A program made the translations under genes and the position numbers. A stretch of 34,927 bases of DNA from a bacterium (GTDB lineage: Bacteria > JACRDZ01 > JAQUKH01). The notes below the pieces were generated by a model that saw only the letters and a list, made by a program, of their open reading frames with translations, did not search any database and was not told the origin of the DNA. The DNA is taken from NCBI GenBank assembly GCA_040754625.1, contig JBFMCF010000049.1, forward strand, positions 1 through 34,927, in the 5' to 3' direction. Positions 238 through 28,585 of the stretch are shown piece after piece (the stretch's first letter is position 1; each line of letters opens with the position of its first letter).

Positions 238-3078
238 TTACTCTCCCTGCGGGTGGCACATTTCACATGTAGGCCTGTCATTAACTGTCTTTGTTGTATC
301 ATGTTGTGTATGGTTAGCCACCGGTCTCTTATTGTAGTATCCGGTATCCGCGGACGTCCACGCGCTGCTGTAATTCCCCGTATTTGTGGTATTACCTTCC
401 AATATATACGAACCCCAGCGTGAATTCGCGCTGTGCGCCGAGTGGCACGATTCACAAACCATCCTGCCGTAAGGATAATTCGCGGGTTTATAAACAGCGG
501 CCGATTCACGGACCACCTTCTTTGGTTCCACTGTATCGTATATATTGATTGTGCTGTCTGTTTTTGAAACCCAGTCATGCCTGTTATCAGGATTTTTGGG
601 ATTTCCCGGGGTTTCCTTGTGCCCGGGGTGTGTGGTATCCGGCTCATCCACAGGATGTGTCGCCGCCGGGAAATGGCATGTATAACATATATATGACCCC
701 GTGTTCTTCGCCAGAAGCAATTCGCCGCTCCAGGTGCTGTCTTCTGTGGTATCATCAACAGGGCCGTTGCCTGCGGAACCGCCCGCTGCCGCGCCGTGCG
801 GTGTATGGCATGATAAACAGGTAATTACAGGCATGGTCGTAGTCCCATACAAATAACCCACTATGCTATATTGGTCAACCCCGACCCCGTCTGTCGCGTA
901 GGTCCATTTCCTCCTCCCCGGCCAGCCGCCAAACCATGTAGTGTCCAGCCAGTTGTCAACATCAGTCGTATTTTCTATCTCTCCTCTATGGTCTAATGTA
1001 GTATCACTGCTCCCAAGCCACCCATAAGTGGCATTACTTAAATACGGCCTGTTATTGGAAATAACTCCGATATAATGACTGCCCAGCCTCGAGGTGCCGT
1101 ATAGTTCAGTAGAATCCTTATGTACCCACGCGGGACTTGGGCCCTCTAAATACCAATAACTCGGATTTGCCGATTTTTGTTTCGCCGTTCCAACGCGCAG
1201 GGTATCCAAAAGACCCTTGCTGTAAGTCGTGGAAAGAGGTATTGCTGCAGTATCCCACCATCCGTGGCAGTTAACACAAAGTTCCGCGAAATCAATGTAA
1301 TCGGCAAGCAGGAACCTTCCCATCGCTCCATGGATTACCCCGGTCCCGAATACACCGCCATGGCATGTCCTGCATATAACTTCCGCGTTTGCGCCTGTCC
1401 CTAATAAAGGTAACCTCGCGTAGTTCGGAAGTGTAAACGAAGCACCTGAACCGTCTTCTGTCTCGAGGTTGCAAATAACGCCCGGCTTTAATCCCTTCAC
1501 AGGATGTGAGGCGCCCGCGGGAAGCGGATTTTGATAATGGCAGTCTTCACAAAATTGCGGTGATGACTGGGCCCTTAAAATAGGCGTCCCAACCTCGCCA
1601 AAATGGGCATCATGACAACTCATGCACACTAAATAATAAGTACCTGACACCCTTGTTGTCCCCATTGCATGGACATTCGGGGCACCGCTTTCCTCATAAT
1701 TCACCCATGAGATTGAAGTAGAATCAGCATGGACCGGGTACCTGATCCGCAAACCTATATCCGTGCTTGAATATATCTCATTTGCCAGATTACTTATATA
1801 CGCCCTCGTGGTATTATCGGCCGTGGATGCCGGGTAATTGTTTACAGGGTGGGCGTATTTCCTTTTGACAAAATCCACATCGGCTGTCGCGTAATCCGCC
1901 GTATCTGTTTTTTTAGGGGTGATACCGTGGCACCATTCACAAAGGTTGCTTTCGCCCTCGGCGATAACAAAAGCTGTTTCTATATACCAATGGGAATATG
2001 CATCCTGAAAAACATCCACCGCAGAAGAGGAATAGCCGCTTCCATCATTATCTTTTACTAAAAGAGGTCCTACAACCAGTTCAAACGTATCATTTGCGCT
2101 GGTTACCCCGTCTTGTGAATTAGGAGCGCCGTGAGGCATATGGCAGGACATGCATATAAATTCTCCGGAAGGCCCCAAATGAGCGCCCCTGTCCCCTACC
2201 GCCCTGCCGGCTTTACTGCCTGAAGCACCTGTAGTATCTTTATATTTTTTAAAAAACCTTGTCCCTGTTGAATCAGGATCGCAATTCAGGGTATCAAGCC
2301 ATATCCCTACATAAGCTGAATTCATTGCAAATGAATTCGGGTCTGCCACTATATTGCCGACCGGATGCGATCCTTCGTTGGATGTCCCTCTTCCGCTCTT
2401 GTCGCGGCCCGTATGGCAAAATGAACATATGTTCCTGAAATCAGAGTCATATGTGGTACCGTAATCCGATGCTGAAGAATCAAAGTAAGCCGCACGCAGA
2501 TAGTTTCTGCGGCTGCCCTGGTTCCATTCATGAGCATTATGACAGGTTGTACACTCTATATTTCTTTTACCCTTTAACCAATCTTCATAATAAGGCCACT
2601 TTATTGAAGCCGCCGTTGTCGAGGTGGAATCCGCTATACCAAGGCCGGCTGTATCAGCCAGATAAGCCGAAGTATACAGGGTCGGGTGTGTATCATAAGC
2701 AGTTGTGTCCGCCGCCCTGTCTGGCTTGTATAAGGCCCTGAAAATTATTTCATTTGAAGGATCGAGATGGGCCGCGGTAAAATCAGTATCAATCGATGTA
2801 TGGCACTGCGCGCACAAAAATGCCACAGTCCCTACTTTTTCTTTATTACTTACACCTGTAGTTTCAACTACTTTTGATATTGGAAATAACCTGTCACCTT
2901 TGGCTGAATGCGGAATATGACAAAAAGAACATACCCCGGTGTTGACCCGTGATCCAAGTTGGTTGGTATTGTGCCAAAAAACAACATCGTGCGGGCTCCG
3001 GCTTATGCCGGCAAATGAAATATTATACAAGCAGGCAATCAGAAGAAGCGTCAAAGCCGGCATAAAACTTTTCTTCAT
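238..3078 (-). CDS. Secreted 14-haem c-type cytochrome (paralogue 1)
   Basis: Protein of 946 residues. It has a signal peptide (MKKSF, hydrophobic core, cut near SFA-GIS) and 14 CXXCH motifs spread along the whole chain, many as CXXCH-x-PH or CXXCH-x-AH pairs typical of the doubled-CXXCH family. The last motif is almost at the C-terminus (CEMCHPQGE). Spacers are rich in Thr, Ser, Asp and Gly. Two non-haem cysteines (LNCDPD and VICNLE) are shared only with the paralogue at 12044-14875 and could form a disulfide. No membrane segment other than the signal, so it should act in the periplasm or outside the cell as an electron carrier. The start is fixed by AGGAGGGAAAGT before ATG. It has its own promoter (3133-3161) and terminators. 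Substrate and partners cannot be read from sequence. Confidence 0.93.
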   Translation of the reverse strand: MKKSFMPALTLLLIACLYNISFAGISRSPHDVVFWHNTNQLGSRVNTGVCSFCHIPHSAKGDRLFPISKVVETTGVSNKEKVGTVAFLCAQCHTSIDTDFTAAHLDPSNEIIFRALYKPDRAADTTAYDTHPTLYTSAYLADTAGLGIADSTSTTAASIKWPYYEDWLKGKRNIECTTCHNAHEWNQGSRRNYLRAAYFDSSASDYGTTYDSDFRNICSFCHTGRDKSGRGTSNEGSHPVGNIVADPNSFAMNSAYVGIWLDTLNCDPDSTGTRFFKKYKDTTGASGSKAGRAVGDRGAHLGPSGEFICMSCHMPHGAPNSQDGVTSANDTFELVVGPLLVKDNDGSGYSSSAVDVFQDAYSHWYIETAFVIAEGESNLCEWCHGITPKKTDTADYATADVDFVKRKYAHPVNNYPASTADNTTRAYISNLANEIYSSTDIGLRIRYPVHADSTSISWVNYEESGAPNVHAMGTTRVSGTYYLVCMSCHDAHFGEVGTPILRAQSSPQFCEDCHYQNPLPAGASHPVKGLKPGVICNLETEDGSGASFTLPNYARLPLLGTGANAEVICRTCHGGVFGTGVIHGAMGRFLLADYIDFAELCVNCHGWWDTAAIPLSTTYSKGLLDTLRVGTAKQKSANPSYWYLEGPSPAWVHKDSTELYGTSRLGSHYIGVISNNRPYLSNATYGWLGSSDTTLDHRGEIENTTDVDNWLDTTWFGGWPGRRKWTYATDGVGVDQYSIVGYLYGTTTMPVITCLSCHTPHGAAAGGSAGNGPVDDTTEDSTWSGELLLAKNTGSYICYTCHFPAATHPVDEPDTTHPGHKETPGNPKNPDNRHDWVSKTDSTINIYDTVEPKKVVRESAAVYKPANYPYGRMVCESCHSAHSANSRWGSYILEGNTTNTGNYSSAWTSADTGYYNKRPVANHTQHDTTKTVNDRPTCEMCHPQGE

Positions 3079-3479: not shown

Positions 3480-5996
3480 CTAGTATTGCCCCTGCAAATG
3501 GCATTTTTTACATAACGGATAAAAATCAAGTTTAGTTGGTTTATAAATATAGCCGCCTTCCCTGTTAATATTTCCCTCGCCCTCTTCCAATACATACGCC
3601 CCGGGTGAATTCGCGGCTGAATGCAAACTATGGCAGCTTTCACAAACTAAATGCCTGGGAGCACCCGGTGTCTGATTCCACCTGACTACCTGCCCCTTAT
3701 TATTAGTATACTCCCCATCCTGCCAGCCCACGGGATAATCACAAGGAAGCATAGACACCTCATCCTGGACTATCATTGAATCTAAAATACTTAATTGCTT
3801 ATTTTTTCCGCCCAGGATATCGCCCATTACAGGGTGGGAACCCGGGGGAGTATGACAATCATTGCACATTTGCGAATAATTATTTATATCAAGAAGCAGC
3901 CTGTCTTCGCCGGGGGAATCGGAAAGTCCGGTCGCGGCCCCATGCGGCGTATGACAGCTCTGGCATATAACATGGGGGTATTTTTTTATCTCATCATAAC
4001 CGTCTCTTTTACGGTCGCCCCCGGGCCCGCCAATATGAGTATATTGTTTAGAAAATGCCCATGGCCTGTTTTTTTCACGATAATCATTAACATGTGCCGT
4101 GCCAAGCCAGTCAGAATGATCTTCCTGTTTAATAATTATGCCTTCACGCGTGAATTCATTTCTATTTGTGGTCACATCGCCTATATAATGGGAACCTAAT
4201 CTAAGTGTATCAAAATCCTCTGTGGGATCTTTACTTTGAAGCGAATCTAAACCTTCAAAATAATACACACTGGGATTATGAGGATTCTTTTCATTTGTAT
4301 GGCAGGCTTCACAAATCTCAGAATTATCATCTGTAACTGCCAAAAGATAATTATCCTCGCCCGTGTGTGCCAGATGGCATGTGCGGCAGACCACTTTATT
4401 ATCCACCAAATTTATTTTTGAACGGATATTTTGCAGTAATATTCCTTCTGAATTTATTAAAGAATCCCTTATTGCCATTCTTAACCGGTCCCTGCTCATC
4501 ATCGGCACATTTACCGGATGGCTGACTCCCCAAACTTCTTTCGTACCTTTTATTTGTGTCCCCATTTCTTCACTAATCGGATTTAAAAAATTATTGTAAT
4601 CATTATACCTGGGTTTACGTCCATGACAGTCTTCGCAAAAAATATCTGAAGAATTTGCCCGCAATATCGGCGAACCTGCCTTTGCCCCATGAGGATCATG
4701 GCAGCTCATACAAATTAAATATTCACCCATTGTCCTCTCAAAGTTTGCGGGCAGGGTATTCGGCTCCCCTGATTCTTCATAATCAATCCATTGACTATTA
4801 TCGGCTTCATTAAAAGGATAATGAATAGATAACGGCGTCCCTTTTTCGTTTCCAAATTCACGTTCGGTATAGGGTGTTACATTTGAAGAAAAATTATCAT
4901 CGGTCGGTGTGGGGAATTTATTTACCGGGTGTGTATGTTTATTCCCGGCAGTATCAACCGCCGGCATTTCCGTATGACATTTTTCACACAGAAGGCTCTC
5001 CCCGGGAACACTTCCCACCGTATCATTATTTACTACCAATAGAGGCCCTACTCTTAAAGGGGTATTATCCATATACAAACCATCCTGGACAGGTTCTGCT
5101 CCATGGACCTGGTGACAGGTCATACATATTATCCCGCCCTGTGTAAAATAAGAAAGATGCCCCCCAAGCACGCCCTTTGGCTGGGTAAAAATACTATCTA
5201 AAATTATCCCGGCCCCGCCGTTCCTGGCGTTTTCCCTTGAAACAGAATGCCCGGCCGGGTGGGTCCCTGAATCCGGGATTTCTCTTACGCCGTTATCACT
5301 CTTTTTCCCCGAATCCTCTCTTTGCTGATGGCAGTAGGAACAAAAATTCTGGACCGGGCCTTTATAATTTGAAAAATTTCCTTCTTCCTGCACTGAATCA
5401 TACATCATTGCTCTCATAAAATTCCCGTTAATATTATCATGGGGATTATGACAGGTAGTACATTGAATGCTTTTCTCTTTTTCAGTCTCCGGCCATTCCT
5501 GGGCGGGGGTATCAACTACTTCACCAAGCCAATCAGTATTTTCGACATTCGGCGTTTCATAACTTGCGAACCCAACGGGGTGGTTTGCCCGTTTAACATT
5601 AAACACTGTAAATATTTTTTTCGCTTTTGTCCCTGCCAGGCTCGTTCCATGGCATATATAACAAACACGTGAAACGCTGCCAAAATCACCGTAATCTTTT
5701 TCCCTTGGTTTATACGGCCAGATCTGGGAACCAACTGCGCTGTGCGGTATATGACAATAAGCGCAAACACCTTCTAATTCAACGCCTCCCGCCCATTCAG
5801 TATTGACTTCAAGATTATGCACTGTCTCTACTATACCGCTCGCATAAATCAGAGACGAAGCCGGAAAAATAAAATAAAAAATGCAAAATGCAAAATGCAA
5901 AATATGGTGTTTTTCGGGCTTAAAATTCCGCCGCGAGGCGGTTCGACAATTTTTCATTTTAAATTTTAACTTTTGAATTGTATTTCTACTTCCCAT
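3480..5996 (-). CDS. Secreted 14-haem c-type cytochrome (paralogue 3)
   Basis: Protein of 838 residues with 14 CXXCH motifs in the same order and context as its upstream neighbour: CAYCHIPHSA near the start, CESCHSLHSA and CKKCHLQGQY at the end. The mature part begins near SGIVETVHN, matching SIIETVHN in the neighbour. The N-terminus is odd. The only possible signal peptide lies behind about 35 residues encoded by a palindrome and a triplicated 7-mer (see the repeats at 5881-5901 and 5928-5941). The ATG at 5996 overlaps the preceding stop codon and has AGGGGA about 7 nt upstream; an internal ATG at residue 14 lacks a ribosome site. Periplasmic or extracellular electron carrier by family. It is followed by the small membrane protein gene. 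Confidence 0.9.
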   Translation of the reverse strand: MGSRNTIQKLKFKMKNCRTASRRNFKPEKHHILHFAFCIFYFIFPASSLIYASGIVETVHNLEVNTEWAGGVELEGVCAYCHIPHSAVGSQIWPYKPREKDYGDFGSVSRVCYICHGTSLAGTKAKKIFTVFNVKRANHPVGFASYETPNVENTDWLGEVVDTPAQEWPETEKEKSIQCTTCHNPHDNINGNFMRAMMYDSVQEEGNFSNYKGPVQNFCSYCHQQREDSGKKSDNGVREIPDSGTHPAGHSVSRENARNGGAGIILDSIFTQPKGVLGGHLSYFTQGGIICMTCHQVHGAEPVQDGLYMDNTPLRVGPLLVVNNDTVGSVPGESLLCEKCHTEMPAVDTAGNKHTHPVNKFPTPTDDNFSSNVTPYTEREFGNEKGTPLSIHYPFNEADNSQWIDYEESGEPNTLPANFERTMGEYLICMSCHDPHGAKAGSPILRANSSDIFCEDCHGRKPRYNDYNNFLNPISEEMGTQIKGTKEVWGVSHPVNVPMMSRDRLRMAIRDSLINSEGILLQNIRSKINLVDNKVVCRTCHLAHTGEDNYLLAVTDDNSEICEACHTNEKNPHNPSVYYFEGLDSLQSKDPTEDFDTLRLGSHYIGDVTTNRNEFTREGIIIKQEDHSDWLGTAHVNDYREKNRPWAFSKQYTHIGGPGGDRKRDGYDEIKKYPHVICQSCHTPHGAATGLSDSPGEDRLLLDINNYSQMCNDCHTPPGSHPVMGDILGGKNKQLSILDSMIVQDEVSMLPCDYPVGWQDGEYTNNKGQVVRWNQTPGAPRHLVCESCHSLHSAANSPGAYVLEEGEGNINREGGYIYKPTKLDFYPLCKKCHLQGQY
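5881..5901. repeat. Triplicated 7-mer inside a signal-peptide coding region
   Basis: ATGCAAA occurs three times in tandem and is followed by ATATGG. On the coding (minus) strand it supplies the hydrophobic run HILHFAFCIFYF of the 838-residue cytochrome. Repeats of this kind are usually intergenic, so coding use is notable. Confidence 0.75.
5928..5941. repeat. GC-rich REP-like palindrome
   Basis: CCGCC (5928-5932), loop GCGA, GGCGG (5937-5941). It sits beside the 7-mer array within the first 25 codons of the 838-residue cytochrome and is much more GC-rich than its surroundings. It may be part of a dispersed repeat; only one copy is visible in this window. Confidence 0.5.
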
Positions 5997-8340
5997 CCAC
6001 TATCCCCTGTAAATGGCACCGGTTGCATAACGGCTGGTGATCACGTTCACGCGGCCTTTTATTAAACCATCCCTTATCTTCAGGAACAGAGGGAAGTGCG
6101 ACGGAAAGTTTTCCCGCCTCTGTAATAAATGCCCCGCTTAATGAATACGCGTTATGAGCGGTATGGCAGCTTTCACAAACCATTTGAGGATTGTTATCAC
6201 CGGAAGTATCGGGGTAATCTGCCGGCATGGTAAAATTATCAATATACAGCTCATTATCATATCCTATTGCAAACTGTGAATTCCTGGGATTCAAAGGCTG
6301 TTCTGTCCGTGTAACAGTTTCTGATAATACAGGATGGCTTCCCGGCGGATAATGGCACCCTGAACAAAGCTTTGAGCTTGTATTGGAAGTCAAAAGCAGA
6401 CGGCTCAAATTTGCCCCGTCATCACTGGCAAGGCCCCTAGCCGCACCATGAGGAGTATGGCAGGACTGGCATATTATCATTGTCCCGCCGTAACCCGAGT
6501 GTTCCGGGTCCGCGCCCGGGCCGCCAGCATGTGAAAACTGGTTGGAATCAGGCCATGGGGTGTTATAACCATTATCTACATAAGCAGTCGCCAGCCAGTC
6601 TTGTCTTTCACCTGTATCATAAGCGGAATAAGTATCATATTTATATCTATTTTTGTATGTAACATCCCCGATATAGTGGCTCCCCAGCCTCGGCAAATCA
6701 TGGGTTTCAGCTTTAGGTTCGTTTTCTTTCTTAATTTCTATCCATTCATTTGCCTTCCCGTTTGGATAAATCTCGGCAGGCCCTTCCAGGTAATATACAC
6801 TTGGGTTATGCGGCTCTTCAGGATGTGTATGACAACATTCGCATATTTCAGAATTTCTGTCGGTAATTGTCAATAATCTTGTATTTACAGCCGAATGCGG
6901 GGAATGGCATGTCCTGCAGGTAATATATCCGTTTTTCAATTCAAGCGCGGCCTGGATTCCGGTAAGAAATATTCCCGGGGAATCGTAAATTTCCAGAGAC
7001 TCTCTTATCGCCATCTCAAAACCATCTTTATTTTTAAACCTGAACGGGCCGCTCAATTCTATTGCCCCGGCCCGCCAGATATTTATGCCGACTGTATCCA
7101 CAGGATGGTTCTCTCCCGCGACAGGTTTATCTGTATGGCAATCTTCACATAAATTTTCCGAGGAACCGCTGCGCAAAAGAGGCGTCCCGGGTTTAGCACC
7201 ATGCGGATCATGGCAGCTTATGCAGACAAGATACTCTCCCGGGACCCTTCTGCCTTTACCCTGGTGTTCATTGGGTTCTCCTGATTCTTCATAATTTACC
7301 CAGAAGGCCGGCGGATAATAAACCTCTAACGTATCACCCGAAGAAGATATATTATCGTTACTGCTTGTTCCAAGCGGGTACCTGTCAACAGGGTGCGAAA
7401 AACGGGTGGTATCTTTCATATACGGGGTCTTCCCATGACAGGATTCACAAAGAAGACTTTGGCCTCCTGAGGCGTACGGAATATCAGTGGAATCCGGCTG
7501 TGGTTTCGTTGTATCATTATTAATAATTAAAAGCGGGCCTGTATGTAAAGACATCCCGTTGGAATACAAACCATCTTTGCCTCCCGGCACACCATGAGGG
7601 CTGTGACATGTTGCACAAATTATGCCGCCGGTTGTTCCATATGCTAAATGCCCGCCTAAAACACCAAACGGATTCGCAAAAATAGCGCTGTCAATAACAA
7701 TACCCGGCAGGCCGTCACCGGTTATATTCATACCAACCGGATGCGTTCCTTTATTATTTATTCCTTTTGAGCTCGTTTCTCTTTTTTGGTGGCAGTAAGA
7801 ACATAAATTCTGGAGTTCTTTTTCATAAGAAGAACCGCCTTCATCGGCAGTAGTATCAAATATTAACGTATTTAAAAAACGGCCGTTTCTGTTATCATGG
7901 GGATTATGGCAGGTAGAACACTCTATATCAGTCGTGTCTTCAGTATGAGGCCAGCTGCTCGCGATAAATCTTTCATTCAGCCAGTCTGTTTCTTCAACAT
8001 TAGGTTCAATATTACTCGCGTGGACAACAGGATGGTTATCTTTTTTCAAATCAAAAACAGTAAAAGATTTATTTGCGCGGGTCCCCGCGCGGTTCGTCCC
8101 GTGGCAGGAATAACACAAATTACCGATCTTCCCAAATTCCCTCGCTTCTAATTCATAACGCCATAATACAGGCCCTTTAGCGCTGTGCGGCACATGACAA
8201 TAAGCACAAACACCTTCAAACTCGCCGCCTCCGGCAAATTGGGCGTTGAGTTCCTGGTTATGAACAGTTTCAATGATACTTGCTTTAACAACCAAAGTTA
8301 ATAAAATAATAAGTAGAAAAGCAAGTAACCATCTTTTCAT
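5986..8340 (-). CDS. Secreted 14-haem c-type cytochrome (paralogue 4)
   Basis: Protein of 784 residues with a clean signal peptide (MKRWLLAFLLIILLTLVVKA-SII) and 14 CXXCH motifs. The tenth is CECCH, with an extra cysteine inside the haem motif. The order CAYCHVPHS, CSTCHNPHDN, CISCHDPHGAKPG, CRTCHSPHSA, CQSCHTPHGAA and CESCHTAHN repeats that of the downstream 838-residue protein, so the two are a tandem duplication that has diverged. Predicted periplasmic or extracellular electron carrier. It starts 31 nt after the NHL gene ends; its stop overlaps the next start codon, which implies translational coupling. The ribosome site is weak (AAGGAAT, long spacing). Confidence 0.93.
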   Translation of the reverse strand: MKRWLLAFLLIILLTLVVKASIIETVHNQELNAQFAGGGEFEGVCAYCHVPHSAKGPVLWRYELEAREFGKIGNLCYSCHGTNRAGTRANKSFTVFDLKKDNHPVVHASNIEPNVEETDWLNERFIASSWPHTEDTTDIECSTCHNPHDNRNGRFLNTLIFDTTADEGGSSYEKELQNLCSYCHQKRETSSKGINNKGTHPVGMNITGDGLPGIVIDSAIFANPFGVLGGHLAYGTTGGIICATCHSPHGVPGGKDGLYSNGMSLHTGPLLIINNDTTKPQPDSTDIPYASGGQSLLCESCHGKTPYMKDTTRFSHPVDRYPLGTSSNDNISSSGDTLEVYYPPAFWVNYEESGEPNEHQGKGRRVPGEYLVCISCHDPHGAKPGTPLLRSGSSENLCEDCHTDKPVAGENHPVDTVGINIWRAGAIELSGPFRFKNKDGFEMAIRESLEIYDSPGIFLTGIQAALELKNGYITCRTCHSPHSAVNTRLLTITDRNSEICECCHTHPEEPHNPSVYYLEGPAEIYPNGKANEWIEIKKENEPKAETHDLPRLGSHYIGDVTYKNRYKYDTYSAYDTGERQDWLATAYVDNGYNTPWPDSNQFSHAGGPGADPEHSGYGGTMIICQSCHTPHGAARGLASDDGANLSRLLLTSNTSSKLCSGCHYPPGSHPVLSETVTRTEQPLNPRNSQFAIGYDNELYIDNFTMPADYPDTSGDNNPQMVCESCHTAHNAYSLSGAFITEAGKLSVALPSVPEDKGWFNKRPRERDHQPLCNRCHLQGIVDGK

Positions 8341-8371: not shown

Positions 8372-9328
8372 TTATTTTTTGAATTTCCAGACAGATATCC
8401 GGTGCCTTAAAAGTTCTGAAATGTAGATGCGGTCTTTCCTGGCTGCAATTCCTCCTATAGTAGTCAAATCCATGCGCCCACCCTTTTCATCTGAAAGAGC
8501 AAAAAGAAATTTTCCTTCGCGGTCAAAAACCTGGACATTTCCCTTAGCGATATCCGCTACATAAACCCTGTCCATTTCATCTATAGCTATGCCAGATGTT
8601 TGCCCAAAAAGGCCCGCTACATCTCCCTGTCCTCCAAATTCAGTCAAAAAATTCCCGGTATTATCGAATCTATAAATGCGGCTTATAATCCCGCATGATA
8701 CATAAACCTCATCATGGCTGTTAATCGCTATATAGGCAGGCCTGACTAAACCTCTTGGTTTGCCGTTTATTTCAAAGACATTGACAATAAACTTATAATT
8801 GCCGTTTTTATCATGAACTTCAAGCAATTGGTCATCCACGTCCGCCACCCAGATATTCCCCTGGCTGTCTACACAAACATCATTCGCGCCGGTCTGGCTG
8901 TCTTCTTTTATTCCCTGGGGCCCCCGGTGCCTGCCTGCCTTAAGTTCAAATTTACTTACGAATTCACCCTCTGGTGTAAAAATCTTCACCTGGTTTAACA
9001 CTGGATCGGCCACGTAGATCCGTCCCTCGGAATCAGCTCCCACTCCGTTGGGGTCAAGAAATTCCTCATCTTCACGGCCTTCCTTCCCAAATGCGGAAAC
9101 AAATTCACCCTTATCATTAAAAACCTGGATACGGCGGTTAACAGTATCTGCTATATACACGTTTCCATTCGCGGCAACCGCGACATCCTGGGGCTGGTTA
9201 AACTGAAATTCCTCTTCTCCTTCTATTATATAAAGAAACAATGTAGGTGTAGTAAGAAACTTTACCTGTGCCGAAACAGAAATACTTAAACCGCAAATAA
9301 AAATTAAAATAAGACGTATATTTTTCAT
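8372..9328 (-). CDS. Secreted NHL-repeat beta-propeller protein
   Basis: Protein of 318 residues. After a signal peptide (MKNIRLILIFICGLSISVSA-Q) come about six NHL blades with the usual pattern of a hydrophobic strand, an ADxxN/R turn and an (I/V)xVF strand, for example NVYIADTVNRRIQVF, RIYVADPVLNQVKIF and RVYVADIAKGNVQVF. NHL propellers are protein- or ligand-binding scaffolds, and no catalytic residue is evident. It contains no CXXCH. It lies between a TPR lipoprotein and two 14-haem cytochromes and resembles the NHL protein at 14950-16014, so a structural or docking role for the cytochromes is the likely inference. No good Shine-Dalgarno sequence precedes the ATG. Confidence 0.88.
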   Translation of the reverse strand: MKNIRLILIFICGLSISVSAQVKFLTTPTLFLYIIEGEEEFQFNQPQDVAVAANGNVYIADTVNRRIQVFNDKGEFVSAFGKEGREDEEFLDPNGVGADSEGRIYVADPVLNQVKIFTPEGEFVSKFELKAGRHRGPQGIKEDSQTGANDVCVDSQGNIWVADVDDQLLEVHDKNGNYKFIVNVFEINGKPRGLVRPAYIAINSHDEVYVSCGIISRIYRFDNTGNFLTEFGGQGDVAGLFGQTSGIAIDEMDRVYVADIAKGNVQVFDREGKFLFALSDEKGGRMDLTTIGGIAARKDRIYISELLRHRISVWKFKK

Positions 9329-10251: not shown

Positions 10252-10253
10252 AA

Positions 10254-16014: not shown

Positions 16015-16049
16015 CAATAATCTCCTCTCTTTTATATCAGATTAAAAAA

Positions 16050-19760: not shown

Positions 19761-19772
19761 TGTATCTCCTGA

Positions 19773-19817
19773 TATTAAACCGTTCAAACGGTTTGAACCG
19801 TTTAAACTGTTCAAACT
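19773..19817. repeat. Array of the 9-bp unit GTTYAAACN (copy 1)
   Basis: Five contiguous units: TATTAAACC, GTTCAAACG, GTTTGAACC, GTTTAAACT, GTTCAAACT. They fill the junction between the 570-residue cytochrome and the thioredoxin-TPR gene and stop a few bases short of the Shine-Dalgarno site. The unit core is a near palindrome. Confidence 0.85.
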
Positions 19818-19828
19818 GTTATTTAAAT

Positions 19829-21541
19829 CTAATACCACTCTTCTTCCGGCACAGGATTTTCACGATCATAGTCTCTCGGCTTATGACAGCCAACCACACA
19901 CCTTCCGCCTGTTGGTGTTTTTGTAAATTCCACTTTATAATTCCAATATGGGCTGAAAGGCACTTCCAGGCGAATATGTTTTTCCTGGGTAGAAGCATGG
20001 ACCTCGTGGCATGCGCGGCAGGTCCGCCCTTTTTTCTTGTTAACATGAACATAATGCATGTTCTTTTTCCCGTTCCGGAAATCAGTCAGCGTCGCGGTAA
20101 ACGGATCCAAAACGACTGTTTTCTTATGGCACCCAAAACATAAATCATATTTACTTTCTTCAAACGCGTCATAAAACGGTTTTGGAAAATCTTTCTGCAA
20201 TATCTTTGTGAAAGCTGAACCATGCGGATTATGACACGCCACACAATCTCCCTGTTTGACCGGGCCGTGCTTGGAAGGTTTATTAAACTCGCTTTCTTTA
20301 TCCTGGTGACACATAAAGCATAATTTTTCGCCTTCCCTCAAAAGCTGGTATTTGGTATCCGCGGCATGGGCATCATGGCACTTGCTGCACTGCCCTTCAG
20401 CCACAGGAGGATGTTTTTCCGCCACCTCTGCAAATCGCGCTTTTTTCTCTTTGTGGCACATATAACATAAACCTGCACCCTCATCTTTTAGCTGATATTT
20501 GAAATCAGATGTATGCGGATCATGGCAATCGCCGCATTTTCTTTCAGCCACGGGTTTATGCACAAATTCTTTTTGCATGTCTTTAGCCTTGGCTTCATGG
20601 CATACAAAACAAATCTCCGCAGGCGGCTTTTCCAATTGGAATTTATACGGGGCGGCATGCGGGTTATGACATACGTTACAGTCACCGGCGGCTACAGGGC
20701 CATGAACAAATTTCATATTGGCTTTATTTCTTTTATGGCACATATAACATAATTCCGCTCCCAAACCTCTTAATTGAAATTCCTGTGCCCCTCCGTGAGG
20801 GTCATGGCATGCATTACAGTCTCCGCCGCCAACCGGCCCATGGACAAACTGCTGTGCAAAATCCATTTCTTTGTCGGTATGGCATCTATAGCATAAGGCG
20901 CTTCCTGTTACTACAAGAGAAAATTTACTGAATGTTCCGTGCGGGCTGTGACAACCTATACAGGCGCCGTCACCTACCGGGCCATGGCTGTAAACATAAG
21001 CGTTAACACTTTTATCTGTATGACAGCCTTCTTCCGGATTCACGCAGGAGATCGCACCTCTTAACAATCTTCCCGGATAAACACCTTTGCTTTCCGATAA
21101 ATCATGGCAGTCATTGCACAATTCAGCGCGGCCTTTAATCGGTTTATGTCCATAGAACTTTTTAAAATCCCTCTGGACAAAATCCGGGATTACCGTTGTA
21201 TCTTTTTTATAAAAAATTTTTACGGCGGACGCCCCTATATCCTTGTCTTTTGCGACAACTTTTATTTCATTCATTCCGTCTTTCAGGGTTACTGCGCCGA
21301 GAAACGTTCCTTTTATAACATCAGCTAACTTTACCGGTGAATCATTAACTAATATGTTAACCTGGGTTACCGACGCGTCATGGACTAAACCGACAATGCG
21401 CACCTCTTCATATTCATAAATTACATTAGTGTTGGGAATAAGAATTTCGATATTGGAGGAAACAACTGCGTAGCTTTTTAGAGTCAAACTTAGAACAAAT
21501 AAAAAAACACCTGTTACCAGTGCAAAAAAATTTTTCCTCAT
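19829..21541 (-). CDS. Secreted cytochrome with tandem two-haem units (14 CXXCH + 2 expanded)
   Basis: Protein of 570 residues. Signal peptide to about residue 25; beta-sandwich-like domain about 30-112 (ILIPNTNVIYEYEEVRIVG ... LKDGMNEIKVVAKD); then 14 CXXCH plus CX6CH (CVNPEEGCH, 166-174) and CX3CH (CVVGCH, 548-553). From about 186 to 473 six units of about 46 residues repeat the pattern HGPV-x-GDC-xx-CH-xPH ... LCYMCHK, each holding two haem sites. Such regular doubled-CXXCH arrays suggest an elongated haem wire. It is the first gene of its block, with a perfect promoter 70 nt upstream and AGGAGC before the ATG. Secreted; acceptor unknown. Confidence 0.93.
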   Translation of the reverse strand: MRKNFFALVTGVFLFVLSLTLKSYAVVSSNIEILIPNTNVIYEYEEVRIVGLVHDASVTQVNILVNDSPVKLADVIKGTFLGAVTLKDGMNEIKVVAKDKDIGASAVKIFYKKDTTVIPDFVQRDFKKFYGHKPIKGRAELCNDCHDLSESKGVYPGRLLRGAISCVNPEEGCHTDKSVNAYVYSHGPVGDGACIGCHSPHGTFSKFSLVVTGSALCYRCHTDKEMDFAQQFVHGPVGGGDCNACHDPHGGAQEFQLRGLGAELCYMCHKRNKANMKFVHGPVAAGDCNVCHNPHAAPYKFQLEKPPAEICFVCHEAKAKDMQKEFVHKPVAERKCGDCHDPHTSDFKYQLKDEGAGLCYMCHKEKKARFAEVAEKHPPVAEGQCSKCHDAHAADTKYQLLREGEKLCFMCHQDKESEFNKPSKHGPVKQGDCVACHNPHGSAFTKILQKDFPKPFYDAFEESKYDLCFGCHKKTVVLDPFTATLTDFRNGKKNMHYVHVNKKKGRTCRACHEVHASTQEKHIRLEVPFSPYWNYKVEFTKTPTGGRCVVGCHKPRDYDRENPVPEEEWY

Positions 21542-21616: not shown

Positions 21617-21646
21617 ATTATATAAAAAAACATATCAAACTGTCAA
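21617..21646 (-). promoter_or_regulatory. Perfect sigma-70 promoter, leftward
   Basis: On the minus strand TTGACA (21641-21646), an 18-nt spacer and TATAAT (21617-21622). It drives the 570-residue cytochrome and the genes behind it, with a 5' leader of about 70 nt. Confidence 0.85.
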
Positions 21647-21682: not shown

Positions 21683-21712
21683 TTGACAAAATAAAAAACC
21701 CAGTGTTATAAT
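21683..21712 (+). promoter_or_regulatory. Perfect sigma-70 promoter, rightward
   Basis: TTGACA (21683-21688), an 18-nt spacer and TATAAT (21707-21712). It drives the two plus-strand lipoprotein genes. It is back to back with the leftward promoter; the two -35 boxes are only 36 nt apart, so one regulator bound between them could affect both. The remaining 230-base gap holds only untranslated leaders. Confidence 0.85.
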
Positions 21713-22679: not shown

Positions 22680-22694
22680 AATAAATGCAATAAT

Positions 22695-22726
22695 AAAAAA
22701 AGGGAGATAAATTCTCCCTTTTTTTA
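22695..22726. terminator. Bidirectional Rho-independent terminator
   Basis: Stem AAGGGAGA (22700-22707) with TCTCCCTT (22713-22720), 5-nt loop, A-tract on the left and T-tract on the right. It serves both the plus-strand lipoproteins and the leftward haem operon, which converge here. Confidence 0.9.
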
Positions 22727-22769
22727 TTTATTTGAGCAGTCGGGGTCTTTTTCCGGCCCCTCATTTATT

Positions 22770-23315
22770 TTAACGTGGTGTTTCACTAATATTCATTGTT
22801 TGTTTTAAGTGTTCAATATTCTGCCTGGCAATTTCTTTAAATTGAGGGTCCTGTTCCAGGCTATAGTTTTTCTCCCATTCAGCTAAAGTTTCTTTGTATT
22901 TTCCCTGTTCATAGTAAACCACACCCAGATTATAATGGGCCTTGGCGTGCTTTGGATTTATCGCTATACCTTTTTTAAACTCCCTCTCAGCTAAATCATA
23001 CAATCCCATCTGCTTGTAGGCCGTTCCCATGTCCGTCCGGACATCAACATTTGTTGAATCAATAAGCAGCACCTTTAAATAGTTTTCAACCGCTTTGTCC
23101 CATTTACCAATATCATAATAGATATTTCCAAGTGCGGTCAAAATTTCCAGATCTTTTGGGTTATTTTGCAATATTCTTTCATATTCGCGGATTCTCTGCT
23201 CGTCCATTTCGTCATGTCCTTCTGCTTTTTTACCGGAAATCTTTTCTTTATTCTGGCAATTGACCGAAAAAAGCAATAAAATCGGTAAGGCGGCTGATAA
23301 AAATTTTTTTCTCAT
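22770..23315 (-). CDS. TPR-repeat protein, probable lipoprotein
   Basis: Protein of 181 residues with a signal sequence ending LLFSVNC; the Asn just before the cysteine is not the usual Gly/Ala/Ser, so lipidation is uncertain. Three or four TPR units follow, for example DLEILTALGNIYYDIGKWDKAVENYLKVL, then VRTDMGTAYKQMGLYDLAEREFKKG, then AKAHYNLGVVYYEQGKYKETLAEWEK. GAGGAG precedes the ATG. It is the last gene of the haem operon, 26 nt after hemL. A scaffold role for cytochrome or haem assembly is inference from position only. Confidence 0.85.
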   Translation of the reverse strand: MRKKFLSAALPILLLFSVNCQNKEKISGKKAEGHDEMDEQRIREYERILQNNPKDLEILTALGNIYYDIGKWDKAVENYLKVLLIDSTNVDVRTDMGTAYKQMGLYDLAEREFKKGIAINPKHAKAHYNLGVVYYEQGKYKETLAEWEKNYSLEQDPQFKEIARQNIEHLKQTMNISETPR

Positions 23316-23341: not shown

Positions 23342-24634
23342 TTAATTTTTCTGTTTTATTATCCTAAACGTTTCTTCCGCGGCCTGAATAGTCATATCAA
23401 CGTCTTTTATACTATGGGCATTTGATAAAAATAAGGCCTCGAACTGGGACGGGGCCAGATAAATATTCCGTTTTATCATCTCTTGAAAAAACAAAGCGAA
23501 TTTACCGGTGTCTGATTTTTTTGCCTCTTCATAATTTGTAACTTTTGTATTTGTAAAAAAAGCGCAAAGCATGGAACCGACCCTGGCTGTATAAATATCA
23601 ACTCCTGCGCTTCTGGCCGCTTTTTCTATCCCTTTAGAAAGCCTTTTACCGAGTCTCTCGAGTTTTTTGTAAATATTTTTATTTGACAATATTTTTAAAG
23701 TCTCTATCCCGGCTACCATGGCCAGCGGATTTCCCGATAAAGTTCCTGCCTGGTATATCGGGCCGCTCGGCGAGACTTTTTCCATTATTTCTCTCCTTCC
23801 TCCGTAAGCTCCTACAGGCAGCCCCCCTCCGATAACCTTTCCAAGGGTCGTTAAATCCGGTTTAATCCCGTATAATTCCTGCGCCCCGCCATAACTTACC
23901 CTGAATCCTGTCATAACTTCATCGAATACCAGAACTATTCCATACTCCTTTGTGAGTTTCCTGATACCCTCTAAAAATCCCTTTTCCGGGGGAATAACAC
24001 CCATATTCCCTGCCACCGGTTCTAAAATTAAACAGGCAATTTCATGGCCGTCTCTTCTGATTACATCTTCAACCTCGTCTAACTTATTATAATTAAGGTT
24101 AATAGTATACCTGGCTGTATCGTAAGGAACACCGGGGCTGTCAGGGACACCCAAAGTAGTGGCCCCCGAACCCGCTTTAACCAATAAACTATCCGCGTGG
24201 CCGTGATAACATCCTGCAAATTTTATAATTTTATCACGTCCGGTGTATCCTCTCGCAACCCTGATTGCGCTCATAGTGGCTTCTGTCCCTGAATTTACCA
24301 TACGCACCATTTCACATGATGGGAACGCGTTTGTAACTAATTTCGCAAGTTCAATTTCATACTCAGTCGGCGCGCCGAAACTTGTCCCTTTTTTCATTGC
24401 TTCCTTCAACGGCTTGATTACCTTAGCGGGAATATGCCCTAAAATCAGCGGCCCCCATGAGAGCACATAATCAATATATTCTTTCCCATCGACATCGTAA
24501 ATTTTTGAACCCCTGCCGTGATCTATAAAAAGAGGTCCACCGCCTACCGATTTAAACGCCCGGACAGGGCTGTTCACACCTCCTGGAATATATTTCTTTG
24601 CTTCTTCAAATAGTTTTTGTGATTTTTCACCCAT
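23342..24634 (-). CDS. hemL: Glutamate-1-semialdehyde 2,1-aminomutase
   Basis: PLP enzyme converting glutamate-1-semialdehyde to 5-aminolevulinate, the second step of the C5 route started by HemA, in the cytoplasm. It has 430 residues from the ATG at 24634. An ATG four codons earlier is in frame, but GGGAG then serves as the ribosome site for the inner ATG. Family marks: [18 protein letters not shown] at the start, [36 protein letters not shown] (PLP aspartate) and [15 protein letters not shown] (Schiff-base lysine). Length is normal for the family. It follows the ahbD-like gene across a 9-bp repeat array. Confidence 0.97.
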
Positions 24635-24654
24635 TTTATCTCCCATATTAAGCT

Positions 24655-24699
24655 GTTCAAACCGTTCAATCAGTTTAAACGGTTTAAACAGTTTGAATT
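24655..24699. repeat. Array of the 9-bp unit GTTYAAACN (copy 2)
   Basis: Five units in phase: GTTCAAACC, GTTCAATCA, GTTTAAACG, GTTTAAACA, GTTTGAATT. It lies between the radical SAM gene and hemL and runs into the stop codon of the former. Confidence 0.85.
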
Positions 24700-25762
24700 A
24701 TTTTTTAACTTTTGGTTTATAAATACAATACGGCTCCTCGCTCATATAATCATTATCCCTGGCATAGGCCCTTGCGCGGCACCCTCCGCAGAAAACTTTA
24801 TATTCACAAATTCCACATTTCCCTTTGAGTTTACTCAGGTCACGCAGATCAGTAAACAATTTACTATTTTGCCATATCCTGGAAAATTTTTCCTTTCTTA
24901 TGTTACCGGCAGTCACAGGCAGATAACCACAGGGCTGGACATCACCCTGCGATGATATAAAACAAAAACCTACACCGCCCAAACACCCTCTTGTCATCGC
25001 TTCAAAACCATGGGTCTGAACTGTGACCTGTTTTCCTTCTTCCTTAGCGCGCTGGCGCATAATCCTGAAATAATGAGGGGCACAGGTAGCTTTCAAATTT
25101 ATATTTACATTTTTACTCTCTTTATAAAACCAGTCCAGTATATCTTCATATTCCTGCGGCGAAATTTCATCGCCTTCAATCTGTTTACCCCGGCCTGTGG
25201 GGACAAGAAGAAAAATATGCAACGCGGCGGCGCCTAACTCTTTTACAAGAGCAGCTATTTTTTGTATTTCATCTTTATTGCGCCTTGTAATTGTTGTATT
25301 TATCTGAAAAGATAAACCGGCCTTTTTTAACTCGCTTATGCCTTTTAACGCCTCCCGGAAAGCGCCCTTTAAACCGCGAAAAGAATCATGGGATGCTTCA
25401 TTTGAACCGTCTAAACTAACACTGACCCTTTGAATGCCTGAGGCTATTAATTTTTTTATCCGTTCAGGGCTAAACAGAGTACCATTTGAAGCCAGGACCA
25501 CTCTCAGTCCTTTTTCTGTTGAATATCTGCTTAATTCGCATATCTCGTCAAACCTCATAAGAGGCTCCCCGCCGCTTAAAATTATCACGGGTTTAGCAAA
25601 CGTTACAACATCATCAATAAGCTTTTTACCTTCGTCTAATGTAATTTCTCCATTCGCCGGAGAAGATGTCGCAGAGGCCCTGCAATGCAAGCATCCCAAA
25701 TTACAGGCCGAAGTCCATTCCCAGGCGATTAGTCTAAGTTCACTGCTTAAAAAATTTTTCAT
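24698..25762 (-). CDS. ahbD: Radical SAM haem synthase, AhbD type
   Basis: Protein of 354 residues. The CX3CX2C iron-sulfur site (C20, C24, C27 in SACNLGCLHCRAS) and GGEP (64-67) define a radical SAM enzyme. A C-terminal SPASM-like cysteine set (CGYLP; CGICEYKVFCGGCRARAY; PYC) binds a second cluster. Stretches such as FAKPVIILSGGEPLMR, GIQRVSVSLDGS, QINTTITRRN and HIFLLVPTGRGK are typical of AhbD, which oxidatively decarboxylates Fe-coproporphyrin III to haem b in the siroheme-dependent pathway. AhbC or NirJ relatives are the alternative. Its place among hemA, C, D, B and L supports haem synthesis. CAGGAG precedes the ATG. Confidence 0.88.
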   Translation of the reverse strand: MKNFLSSELRLIAWEWTSACNLGCLHCRASATSSPANGEITLDEGKKLIDDVVTFAKPVIILSGGEPLMRFDEICELSRYSTEKGLRVVLASNGTLFSPERIKKLIASGIQRVSVSLDGSNEASHDSFRGLKGAFREALKGISELKKAGLSFQINTTITRRNKDEIQKIAALVKELGAAALHIFLLVPTGRGKQIEGDEISPQEYEDILDWFYKESKNVNINLKATCAPHYFRIMRQRAKEEGKQVTVQTHGFEAMTRGCLGGVGFCFISSQGDVQPCGYLPVTAGNIRKEKFSRIWQNSKLFTDLRDLSKLKGKCGICEYKVFCGGCRARAYARDNDYMSEEPYCIYKPKVKK

Positions 25763-25783: not shown

Positions 25784-25864
25784 GTTCAAACAGTTCAAAC
25801 GGTTCAAACAGTTCAAACAGTTCAAACGGTTTAAACGGTTTAAACGGTTCAAACGGTTTAAACT
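25784..25864. repeat. Array of the 9-bp unit GTTYAAACN (copy 3, nine units)
   Basis: Nine perfectly phased units: four GTTCAAAC followed by A/G alternatives, then mixed GTTCAAACG and GTTTAAACG, ending GTTTAAACT. Only positions 4 and 9 vary. It fills the hemB-to-ahbD junction and overlaps the hemB stop codon. Each GTTTAAAC is a perfect palindrome. Confidence 0.95.
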
Positions 25865-26876
25865 ATTTATCTTCTCTCAGCCATTTTGCTGCATCCTTGG
25901 CGTGATACGTAATAATAATATCCGCCCCGGCCCTTTTAATACTTGTAAGAATCTCTAAAGTTATCTTTTTTTCGTCAATCCAGCCTTTCATGGAGGCCGC
26001 TTTTACCATTGCATATTCACCGCTTACATTATACGCGGCAACCGGGATATCAAAATCCGATTTTACTTTTTTTATAATATCAAGATAAGAAAGAGCGGGT
26101 TTTACCATTATAATATCCGCGCCTTCATCTAAATCCTGCATCACTTCTCTTAACGCCTCCTGGGAATTAGAAGGATCCATTTGATAGCCTCGGCGGTCTC
26201 CAAACTGCGGTGTTGAATGCGCGGCCTCCCTAAACGGCCCGTAAAAAGCCGAAGCATACTTGACAGAATACGACATAACAGGGGTGCCGCTGAATCCATT
26301 ATCGTCAAGAACCGACCTTATGGCGCCTATCCGGCCATCCATCATATCGGACGGCGCTACCATGTCTGCGCCCGCCTCCGCGTGGGAAAGAGCGGTTTTA
26401 GCAATAAGCTCCAGCGATGCATCATTATCCACTTCATAATTTTCTCTCTGCTTTCCGCCTTCCGCCTTATGCCTTCTTATAAGTCCGCAATGTCCATGCG
26501 AAGTATATTCACAAAGACAAACATCGGTCACAACAATTATTTCCGGGATTTTCTTTTTTATTAAACGCACCGCTTCCTGGACAATACCATTATTATCATA
26601 AGCCCCGCTTCCGGTATCGTCTTTTTTATCCGGTATACCGAATAAAAGTATCGCGGGAATACCCAATGCCCTGACACCTTCGACTTCCTTATTTAACATA
26701 TCAATGGAAAAATGATACTGGCCGGGCAATGAACTGATTTCTCTTTTTATTTTATTCCCTTCCGCGACAAAAATCGGAAAAATAAATTTATCAGCGGATA
26801 AATAAGTCTCTTTAACCATTTTTCTGAAGTTTTCATTTTGTCTCGTTCTTCTCAATCTTGAAATCGGAAAATACAT
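25863..26876 (-). CDS. hemB: Delta-aminolevulinic acid dehydratase (porphobilinogen synthase)
   Basis: Condenses two 5-aminolevulinate molecules to porphobilinogen. It has 337 residues from the ATG at 26876, where AGGGAGGT gives a clear ribosome site; a longer frame to 26921 only translates the upstream repeat. The start MYFPISRLRRTRQ is typical. C120, C122 and C130 in VCLCEYTSHGHCG form the zinc site, and the two Schiff-base lysines lie in SVKYASAFYGPFREAA and MVKPALSYLDII. Normal length, so it should be active. It sits between the NHL-cytochrome fusion and ahbD. Confidence 0.97.
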   Translation of the reverse strand: MYFPISRLRRTRQNENFRKMVKETYLSADKFIFPIFVAEGNKIKREISSLPGQYHFSIDMLNKEVEGVRALGIPAILLFGIPDKKDDTGSGAYDNNGIVQEAVRLIKKKIPEIIVVTDVCLCEYTSHGHCGLIRRHKAEGGKQRENYEVDNDASLELIAKTALSHAEAGADMVAPSDMMDGRIGAIRSVLDDNGFSGTPVMSYSVKYASAFYGPFREAAHSTPQFGDRRGYQMDPSNSQEALREVMQDLDEGADIIMVKPALSYLDIIKKVKSDFDIPVAAYNVSGEYAMVKAASMKGWIDEKKITLEILTSIKRAGADIIITYHAKDAAKWLREDK

Positions 26877-26897
26877 AATAACCTCCCTGGGAAAATT

Positions 26898-26950
26898 GTT
26901 CAAGCCGTTCAAACGGTTCAAATGTTTAAACTGTTTAAACGGATTAAACT
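26898..26950. repeat. Array of the 9-bp unit GTTYAAACN (copy 4)
   Basis: GTTCAAGCC, GTTCAAACG, then an 8-base GTTCAAAT, GTTTAAACT, GTTTAAACG and GATTAAACT. One unit has lost a base, so the phase shifts. It lies between the NHL-cytochrome gene and hemB, ending just before hemB's ribosome site. Confidence 0.85.
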
Positions 26951-26959: not shown

Positions 26960-28585
26960 TCAGTCAAATCCACCATGGCATTTTATACACAACTCGCCTT
27001 TTGAAGTAATTAATATTGATTTATGCTGCGAGCTATGTGAATCATGGCATGTAAGGCAAAGTATCTTGCCGCCCTTGGCCGTTCTTAAATTAGACGGAAT
27101 TTTGACCTTATTGCTCGGGTAAATATCCTTGTATGGATGGGAATGTTTTTCAATAGCCGGCCCATTATGACAGCTATCATTTGAACAAATAGATTCAACG
27201 TCTCTCTGGAGAAGGAATTTATAAGATGACCCGTGTGATTTATGGCAAAGTTCACAAGAATTTTCTTTTCCCAAACCGGAATGTTTTTTATTAAGCTGGA
27301 TTGTATGGCAGACATAACAAAGCGTTTTAACATCTTCAATCAGTTTAAACCCTGTTTTGTCAATAAGATGGCAGGAATTGCATTTCCCCTGGACAACAGG
27401 TTTATGCCCGCGCAATAATTTTTTGTCATTTGAATAATGAGAATCATGGCAGTCAACGCAATTCATCTTGTCGACGGAATATTTAACATGTTTTGAATTA
27501 AAATCAGCATCATCTGTTTTATGGCAGTCTTTACAGAGTTCACTTATTGGTTTTTTCAAATTTAACGCCGGGTTTTTTCCATGGCTTAAATGACAAACCA
27601 GGCATTCTTTGTAAACAGAATGAATACTCACCGCTTTTTTGGTATCTTCTTTATGGCACATATCGCAAGACGCGTATTGATAAATAACATCACTAAAAAT
27701 CTGGATCCTCGTATTTTTTGAATCCACCACATAAAGCCTGTCATTTTTATCAATAAAAATTTTCATCGGTTCATCGAATTCACCCCTGTCTTTTCCCTTT
27801 TTCCCAAATACAAAAATCACATTGCCTTCTTCATCAAAACATTGTATCCTGTTATTCCCCGTGTCACTTATAAAAATTCTGTCATTACTGTCAATCGCTA
27901 TCCCCTGCGGTTTAAAAAAGGAACCCGGTTCATCTCCCGGCCTTCCGAATTTATTAATATAATCCCCCCTTGTATTAAATACCTGGACACGGTTATTGCC
28001 GGTATCCACTACATAAACCTTGCCTTTTTCTGTAATGGCTATTGCTGTAGGGTTCCTGAATTCCCCATTGGCTATACCCTCCCGGCCAAATTGTTTTAAA
28101 AAATTTCCTTTAATAAGCTGGAGCTGGCTGTTCCCTGTGTCCAGTATAAAAAGAATCCCGGTTTTTCCAAAATCCAGGTCAAAAGGCATATTAAATTTGC
28201 CCTGTCCCTCCCCGAGCCCCCCGAATTGGCCTTTCCAGTTTCCGCGCGGGGTAAAAATTTGAATCTGGTGCTGTCCGATGTCCGTCACATAAATAAACTT
28301 TTCTGAATCCACGCCAACCGCCCAGGGCAGGATAAACTCACCCCTTCCGGTCCCTTTTTTGCCAAAATTAAAATTCAATTTACCTTCTTTAGTAAACACG
28401 TTTATTTTCCCGTCCAGGCTGTCAGTAACATAAATCCAGCCGTCCTTTCCGATAACTACATCGCTTGGGACCGATGATTTATCGAGCTCTATGCAATTAT
28501 AAATTTCCGCTCCGCGAGAAATATTAATTTTATACAAACATACCACGGCGGTAAAAAATACAGGGACCAATTTAAACCATTTCAT
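26960..28585 (-). CDS. NHL-propeller fused to a decahaem cytochrome domain
   Basis: Protein of 541 residues. After a signal peptide (MKWFKLVPVFFTAVVCLYKI) come six NHL blades to about residue 300, for example KVYVVDTGNNRVQVF, RIFISDTGNNRIQCF and RLYVVDSKNTRIQIF. They are followed by nine CXXCH and one CX4CH (CSNDSCH) of the doubled-CXXCH type (CVDCHDSHYS, CELCHKSHGS, CLTCHDSHSS, CIKCHGGFD at the end). It joins on one chain the two modules encoded separately elsewhere in the window. Predicted periplasmic or extracellular. It sits inside the haem operon, 5 nt after cobA-hemD and 83 nt before hemB, so it is made together with haem enzymes. The ribosome site (AGAGGAAAAA) is weakly spaced. Confidence 0.92.
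   Translation of the reverse strand: MKWFKLVPVFFTAVVCLYKINISRGAEIYNCIELDKSSVPSDVVIGKDGWIYVTDSLDGKINVFTKEGKLNFNFGKKGTGRGEFILPWAVGVDSEKFIYVTDIGQHQIQIFTPRGNWKGQFGGLGEGQGKFNMPFDLDFGKTGILFILDTGNSQLQLIKGNFLKQFGREGIANGEFRNPTAIAITEKGKVYVVDTGNNRVQVFNTRGDYINKFGRPGDEPGSFFKPQGIAIDSNDRIFISDTGNNRIQCFDEEGNVIFVFGKKGKDRGEFDEPMKIFIDKNDRLYVVDSKNTRIQIFSDVIYQYASCDMCHKEDTKKAVSIHSVYKECLVCHLSHGKNPALNLKKPISELCKDCHKTDDADFNSKHVKYSVDKMNCVDCHDSHYSNDKKLLRGHKPVVQGKCNSCHLIDKTGFKLIEDVKTLCYVCHTIQLNKKHSGLGKENSCELCHKSHGSSYKFLLQRDVESICSNDSCHNGPAIEKHSHPYKDIYPSNKVKIPSNLRTAKGGKILCLTCHDSHSSQHKSILITSKGELCIKCHGGFD

Follow-up and report, generated by a model that had tools for sequence, protein, structure and literature searches.

The closest described systems are from Geobacter. 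The omcE region (GSU0612-GSU0618) encodes ppcA, a ResB/ResC pair, the cytochromes GSU0615 and GSU0616, and omcE. In Geobacter, multihaem cytochromes are grouped with ResB/ResC pairs, one of which is GSU0613-GSU0614 (PMC2700814); the locus numbers make this pair a neighbour of omcE (GSU0618). PDB entry 7TFS has been identified as the Geobacter OmcE filament protein (PMC12954529). Some products of the osc (omcS-companion) operon, GSU2493-GSU2501, have been proposed to fold, secrete and shape OmcS wires (PMC13194489). The locus described here has in common with the omcE region, by gene content rather than sequence, multihaem cytochromes beside CcsA/ResC-type biogenesis genes. It resembles the osc operon, as that operon is described, in its block of companion genes beside a putative filament cytochrome, with more multihaem cytochromes (OscI and OscJ in Geobacter). 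Unlike the omcE region, it lacks ResB and tetrahaem OmcE and has four 14-haem proteins in that slot; unlike the osc operon, it has no OmcS-like hexahaem gene.

The window (the whole stretch analysed, 34,927 nucleotides) is the entire contig C49 from the 2.75 Mb, 98% complete genome of an uncultured bacterium assigned to the candidate phylum Candidatus Desantisbacteria (G000). The genomes searched included just three others of the phylum: G001, from the same genus, and G002 and G003, from other families. Loci with L numbers are contig stretches from other genomes, or from G000 where stated. An Rfam search of the window gave zero matches.

The cytochrome block and its conservation

Re-translation recovered nine multihaem cytochrome genes, all on the minus strand, with 107 CXXCH and five expanded haem motifs, exactly as counted in the preliminary description of this DNA. 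The number of CXXCH is far above chance, given a mean of 0.5 and a maximum of 3 when the nine proteins were shuffled (500 rounds). The features of the cytochrome block and its right-hand border are:

238..3078, minus strand: cytA, 946 aa, 14 CXXCH, signal peptide, Pfam Paired_CXXCH_1; 14-haem cytochrome in the OmcE slot
3480..5996, minus strand: cytB, 838 aa, 14 CXXCH; two stretches match the OmcE-like HMM
5986..8340, minus strand: cytC, 784 aa, 14 CXXCH; G001 orthologue 76% identical
8372..9328, minus strand: NHL1, predicted secreted 6-bladed propeller; G001 orthologue 87% identical
9364..10302, minus strand: TPR1 lipoprotein; orthologues in G001 and G002
10254..11927, minus strand: cytD, 557 aa, 15 CXXCH; orthologues in G001 (63%), G002 (40%) and G003 (39%, partial)
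12044..14875, minus strand: cytE, 943 aa, 14 CXXCH; the OmcE-like HMM matches its first 185 aa
14950..16017, minus strand: NHL2, predicted secreted propeller; 41% identical to its G001 counterpart
16111..16548, minus strand: small DUF5683 membrane protein; kept in G001 (82%) and G003 (54%)
16597..17778, minus strand: cytF, Ig-like domain, 8 CXXCH, CX3CH and CX4CH; kept in 4/4 genomes
17781..18503, minus strand: cytG, putative Ig-like N-terminus, 5 CXXCH; kept in 4/4 genomes
18522..19838, minus strand: redoxin (TlpA/ResA-like) plus TPR protein, without a CXXC active site
19829..21541, minus strand: cytH, Ig-like domain, 14 CXXCH, CX3CH and CX6CH; first gene of the cytochrome operon
21617..21646, minus strand: consensus promoter match before cytH, TTGACA-18-TATAAT; perfect in G001, near-identical in G003
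21683..21712, plus strand: divergent consensus promoter match before a gene pair, TTGACA-18-TATAAT
21772-22161 and 22197-22679, plus strand: two small lipoprotein-like genes that separate the cytochrome block from the haem block; both are conserved in G001

The expanded motifs are CYSLCH and CIETECH in cytF, CVVGCH and CVNPEEGCH in cytH, and CSNDSCH in the ninth cytochrome (26960-28585). At both cytH sites the two cysteines and the histidine are invariant or almost so across orthologues. The longer of these (CVNPEEGCH, residues 166-174) is a CX6CH motif; the equivalent site is CX4CH in G002 and G003. Judged from sequence identity, cytA and cytE (79% identical) are recent duplicates and cytB and cytC (42%) older ones.

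The gene set recurs in all three further genomes of the phylum, in the form cytH (14 haems), redoxin/TPR, cytG (5), cytF (10), NHL, 14-haem cytochrome, cytD (15) and TPR, which excludes the concern that these genes are found together in this genome only. G001 retains the full gene order up to a contig end. Common to G002 and G003 are cytH, redoxin/TPR, cytG, cytF, an NHL propeller, a 14-haem protein and cytD; DUF5683 is additionally retained in G003 and TPR1 in G002. The most conserved protein is cytH (91, 52 and 53% identity to G001, G002 and G003, respectively). The 14-haem proteins and their propellers diverge more, and unevenly: identity to the G001 counterparts is 32% for cytE and 41% for its neighbour NHL2, which diverges together with it, versus 76% for cytC and 87% for NHL1. 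Since the 14-haem proteins and the propellers vary in step, the pairs look like exchangeable cassettes.

Gaps between minus-strand genes from cytH to cytB do not exceed 116 bp. The gap between cytB and cytA is 401 bp, and cytA may have its own transcription start. A perfect TTGACA-18-TATAAT lies 76 bp upstream of cytH, back to back with a second perfect copy on the plus strand; both, which are promoters as consensus sequence matches only, are perfect in G001 and match at 11 of 12 positions in G003. Transcription of the cytochrome cluster would start at the copy before cytH. The redoxin/TPR protein was considered as a thiol reductase for haem attachment. This was ruled out, as CXXC is absent from 11/11 proteins compared, and so the protein probably has a structural role. 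The TPR and NHL proteins, if comparable with those of the osc operon, may assist in folding or export.

Relatives of cytH and the OmcE slot

The cytH family occurs in 26 of 366 sampled genomes (E<=1e-50). A scan of genome contigs identified 21 cytH relatives, on contigs labelled Zixibacteria, Deltaproteobacteria, Rokubacteria, Actinomycetota and Gammaproteobacteria (unchecked labels, as given by the MAGs). In several lineages the neighbourhood is ResB-CcsA-cytH-redoxin/TPR-cytG-redoxin/TPR, and cytG adjoins cytH in other phyla too. Outside the phylum, L184 has the order ResB-CcsA-cytH-octahaem-NHL-tetrahaem-NHL. A ResB-CcsA pair, an octahaem cytochrome, NHL propellers and an OmcE-like protein are thus encoded side by side there. 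The L184 tetrahaem protein aligns with OmcE (7TFS) along its entire length (E=3.4e-37), that of L187 matches it with E=1.2e-24, and similar tetrahaem genes accompany cytH in L075, L085, L087, L181 and L183. In these seven loci NHL proteins are also encoded beside cytH. Because OmcE-like tetrahaem genes sit beside cytH outside the phylum, the cytH set is tied, by gene neighbourhood, to nanowire-type clusters.

The companions of the OmcE-like gene in L184 have counterparts in the window, namely cytH and the Ig/octahaem type cytF (the L184 octahaem protein being matched to cytF on its N-terminus and position), and NHL or 6-bladed propellers are encoded at 8372-9328 and 14950-16017. No ORF of the window has the size and haem number of the tetrahaem OmcE family. 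Contig C74 has two tetrahaem ORFs; the one searched against the PDB was rejected as a hidden OmcE, having no significant match. No ResB/CcsA pair adjoins the cluster in the window; ResB was identified only on contigs C83 and C25, and the window's CcsB-like gene belongs to the hem operon.

The occupants of the OmcE slot were compared with an HMM built from eight OmcE-like proteins. Two stretches of cytB score 30.7 and 32.7 bits and the N-terminal 185 aa of cytE score 32.4 bits, a match covering the first stretch of haems in each. The best domains of cytA and cytC score 24-26 bits, the controls (cytH, D, F, G and the NHL-cytochrome) 12-17 bits, and some further large multihaem proteins encoded in G000 20-29 bits; doubled CXXCH motifs inflate such similarity scores. 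Profile comparison of the N-termini gave 99.4% probability (score 144) versus 87-96% (49-68) for three control profiles, over 86 aligned columns that are confined to the N-terminus and are partly signal peptide. Common descent of the 14-haem proteins with OmcE is thus suggested, not established. PDB sequence searches with cytE and cytD returned nothing beyond noise. AlphaFold2 gave an unusable model of cytC (7 sequences, pLDDT 27), and in that of cytH (10 sequences, pLDDT 51) the Ig-like domain alone is confident. The 14-haem cytochromes could be concatenated nanowire subunits, that is, tandem-fused OmcE-like tetrahaem modules with one dedicated delivery propeller per cassette, an idea that we put forward tentatively and regard as rather unlikely.

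Haem synthesis genes beside the cytochromes

The haem block, to the right of the two small lipoprotein-like genes, consists of:

22692..22728, minus strand: terminator-like hairpin, 16 pairs, A/T-rich, after the last gene of the haem operon
22770..23315, minus strand: TPR3 lipoprotein, the final gene of the haem operon
23342..24646, minus strand: HemL (TIGR00713)
24698..25762, minus strand: AhbD, radical SAM haem b synthase (TIGR04545, 556 bits, cut-off 500)
25863..26921, minus strand: HemB, confirmed by a curated model
26960..28585, minus strand: NHL-cytochrome, an NHL propeller fused to a 10-haem cytochrome, 9 CXXCH; within the hem operon
28591..30108, minus strand: HemD with an N-terminal SUMT-like domain (curated model)
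30139..31068, minus strand: HemC (TIGR00212)
31094..32407, minus strand: HemA (TIGR01035)
32404..33210, minus strand: CcsB / ResC-HemX-like membrane protein (TIGR03144, 208 bits, cut-off 188)

Curated models confirmed every identity assigned earlier (hemA, C, D, B and L, an AhbD-like synthase and a CcsA-like protein). As in Bacillus hemAXCDBL and the Geobacter hem genes with their ResC/HemX-like gene, a CcsB/HemX-like gene lies beside hemA and is followed by C, D, B and L; the window differs in the insertion of an NHL-cytochrome gene and ahbD. The former, the ninth cytochrome, lies between hemD and hemB at the same place in G001 and G002. In the SUMT half of the HemD fusion, the SAM-binding motif is degenerate in this genus and intact in G002. 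Genes for RnfB and RnfA (33281-34777) lie directly upstream of the haem operon, with RnfB in the same place in G001.

The preliminary description took this haem-supply operon to be complete. It is not, because HemE, HemH and HemY form an operon on another contig, C54; by its gene content the window operon encodes the path as far as uroporphyrinogen III plus its final step, not the whole of it. HemE was identified in 4/4 genomes, with HemH and HemY near it in G000, G001 and G002. Also present in 4/4 genomes is AhbD or a close relative (446.9 bits in G002, under the 500-bit cut-off). AhbA/AhbB (PF17805) and ChdC were found in none of the four genomes, and AhbC (TIGR04546) and HemN in none over cut-off. 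A full siroheme-type (Ahb) pathway was ruled out, AhbA/AhbB and AhbC not being found in the four genomes. From these gene complements, the haem route is probably of the coproporphyrin type and ended by AhbD, with direct support from G002, where AhbD-HemE-HemH-HemY form one operon (L109:1701-5689, contig C221). An AhbD-ended coproporphyrin step in some organisms is already covered in reviews (PMC7242693, PMC10548856). The likeness to that route lies in HemE, HemH, HemY and AhbD without AhbABC or ChdC; the difference is that the genes are split over two loci in the genus of the window. The operon CcsB-HemA-C-D-[NHL-cytochrome]-B-AhbD-L-TPR would thus supply the first part and the last step of haem synthesis, and HemE-HemH-HemY the middle.

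CcsB was considered as proof of dedicated cytochrome assembly. This was weakened, and CcsB cannot safely be called a dedicated assembly factor, because HemX/ResC-like genes are known to adjoin hemA elsewhere and the acidic residue of the WWD motif, an Asp, is replaced. The motif reads WNWAPQ in the window, WHWDPK in G001 and WEWEPK in G002, so that the acidic residue is lost in the window's genome only.

The cytochrome and haem blocks are adjacent in three of the four genomes, directly in G003 and, in G001, by two contig ends that share the start of cytH; they are unlinked in G002. The conserved consensus promoter before cytH and the terminator-like hairpin between the blocks suggest that the two are probably separate transcription units. 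These observations would fit neighbours by descent, an adjacency without functional meaning and compatible with any of the readings discussed below. The linkage in G000, G001 and G003 argues against it, as do two Zixibacteria contigs (L073, L076) in which HemA-C-D-B-L follow cytH and a redoxin/TPR gene, and the cytochrome gene within the hem operon itself in three genomes; we give it somewhat less than an even chance. The preliminary picture of haem manufacture, attachment and use placed together thus holds for the adjacency and is not supported for a single joint unit.

Possible roles and locations of the cytochromes

On balance we favour, with modest confidence, the reading of the block at 238-21541 as a conserved Desantisbacteria variant of a nanowire-type cluster, with four 14-haem proteins, likely wires, in the OmcE slot. 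The gene order of G001, the core shared with G002 and G003, the OmcE-like neighbours of cytH, the Geobacter ResB/ResC grouping, the osc operon with its proposed wire-building proteins, the operon boundaries and the HMM and profile scores all point to it. Against it stand the lack of tetrahaem OmcE or ResB in the window, the weak resemblance to OmcE, the poor AlphaFold2 models and the lack of PDB relatives of cytE and cytD. The locus had been proposed to be a distinct one for extracellular electron transfer. A conserved locus of multihaem cytochromes and propellers it is; "distinct" must be softened, since its core matches OmcE-like nanowire clusters elsewhere.

If the block is of the nanowire type, the conserved carriers of electrons in the periplasm or envelope are likely cytH, cytG and cytF, which combine an Ig-like domain with haems at close spacing. 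Folding, docking or export is likely assisted by the redoxin-like/TPR protein, the TPR lipoprotein and the NHL propellers, with each 14-haem cassette having its own propeller. The proteins cytD and, above all, the fast-diverging cytA, B, C and E are likely surface or extracellular wires that would carry electrons outward from the cell, or inward.

The cytochromes may instead stay in the cell as a periplasmic system, serving in electron storage, as a capacitor or as a branch to a periplasmic reductase. This would fit N-terminal signal peptides as the only targeting feature, a window without a dedicated exporter or barrel, and the greatest likeness of cytH, below cut-off, being to the generic doubled-CXXCH decahaem GSU2203/DmsE type. 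GSU0616, two loci from omcE, was predicted to be periplasmic, and a mutant in it was no slower than the wild type in reducing U(VI) and Fe(III) (PMC1829397). Surface exposure better fits four large, propeller-paired 14-haem proteins that diverge much faster than cytH, and OmcE-like nanowire proteins are encoded in related clusters, so that we consider confinement to the periplasm unlikely.

Genes of the MtrB/PioB family (PF11854) were found in none of the four genomes, the window included, by a family search that would miss a divergent barrel. This agrees with the earlier statement that the locus is not a standard porin-cytochrome conduit, and separates it from MtrCAB and other such conduits, to which its doubled-CXXCH cytochromes are related by distant similarity to MtrA. 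The absence of a porin and a quinol dehydrogenase is not supported as a trait of the organism. NapC/NirT-family proteins are encoded in 4/4 genomes (in G000 on contigs C95 and C45), and with a candidate barrel/14-haem pair elsewhere in the genome they make the missing conduit an effect of the window. The pair is on C95 (L163:1280-9436), where a 14-haem cytochrome, a 577-aa barrel-like protein, a CsgG-like lipoprotein, a class III cytochrome, a CcsA-like protein and a NapC-type protein are encoded in a row. The 577-aa protein, which starts with a signal peptide, ends in Phe and belongs to no Pfam family, is possibly an outer-membrane barrel, and the row is a candidate conduit plus its quinol dehydrogenase.

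Among PDB chains, the cytH profile matches 6r2q_A best (E=2e-22); we take this chain to be MtrA of an MtrCAB complex. The record is named cystathionine beta-synthase, a name that would mislead annotation. We rejected the match as proof of an MtrA-like role, because repeated CXXCH pairs could suffice to produce it. That cytH or cytD crosses the outer membrane inside a barrel encoded elsewhere, in the way MtrA sits in MtrB, is quite improbable: this match and the barrel-like protein adjoining a 14-haem cytochrome on C95 speak for it, but the match may be to doubled CXXCH motifs only, the MtrB/PioB family is missing from 4/4 genomes by the search above, and the cluster has no conserved barrel gene in any of them.

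Other very large multihaem proteins were identified. Contig C83 of G000 (about 24744-41408, L058/L059) has a 5559-aa ORF for a giant multihaem protein, in which several laminin-G/concanavalin-type domains are combined with about 42 CXXCH. Right-handed beta-helix (NosD-like) domains end the proteins at L061:4375-11655 (2427 aa, 37 CXXCH) and L058:3-6485 (at least 2161 aa, 22 CXXCH).

In the favoured reading as a nanowire-type cluster, this gene arrangement is extended to an uncultured candidate phylum, and the cytH / redoxin-TPR / cytG set would be a widespread marker for such clusters in metagenomes. The locus would be a natural case in which a small filament subunit has seemingly been replaced by 14-haem proteins, and it raises the testable questions of whether large multihaem chains can form polymers or serve as wires outside the cell, and of the part played by the propeller proteins. 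If the 14-haem proteins are concatenated, this phylum would build its extracellular wires from prefabricated multi-module segments.
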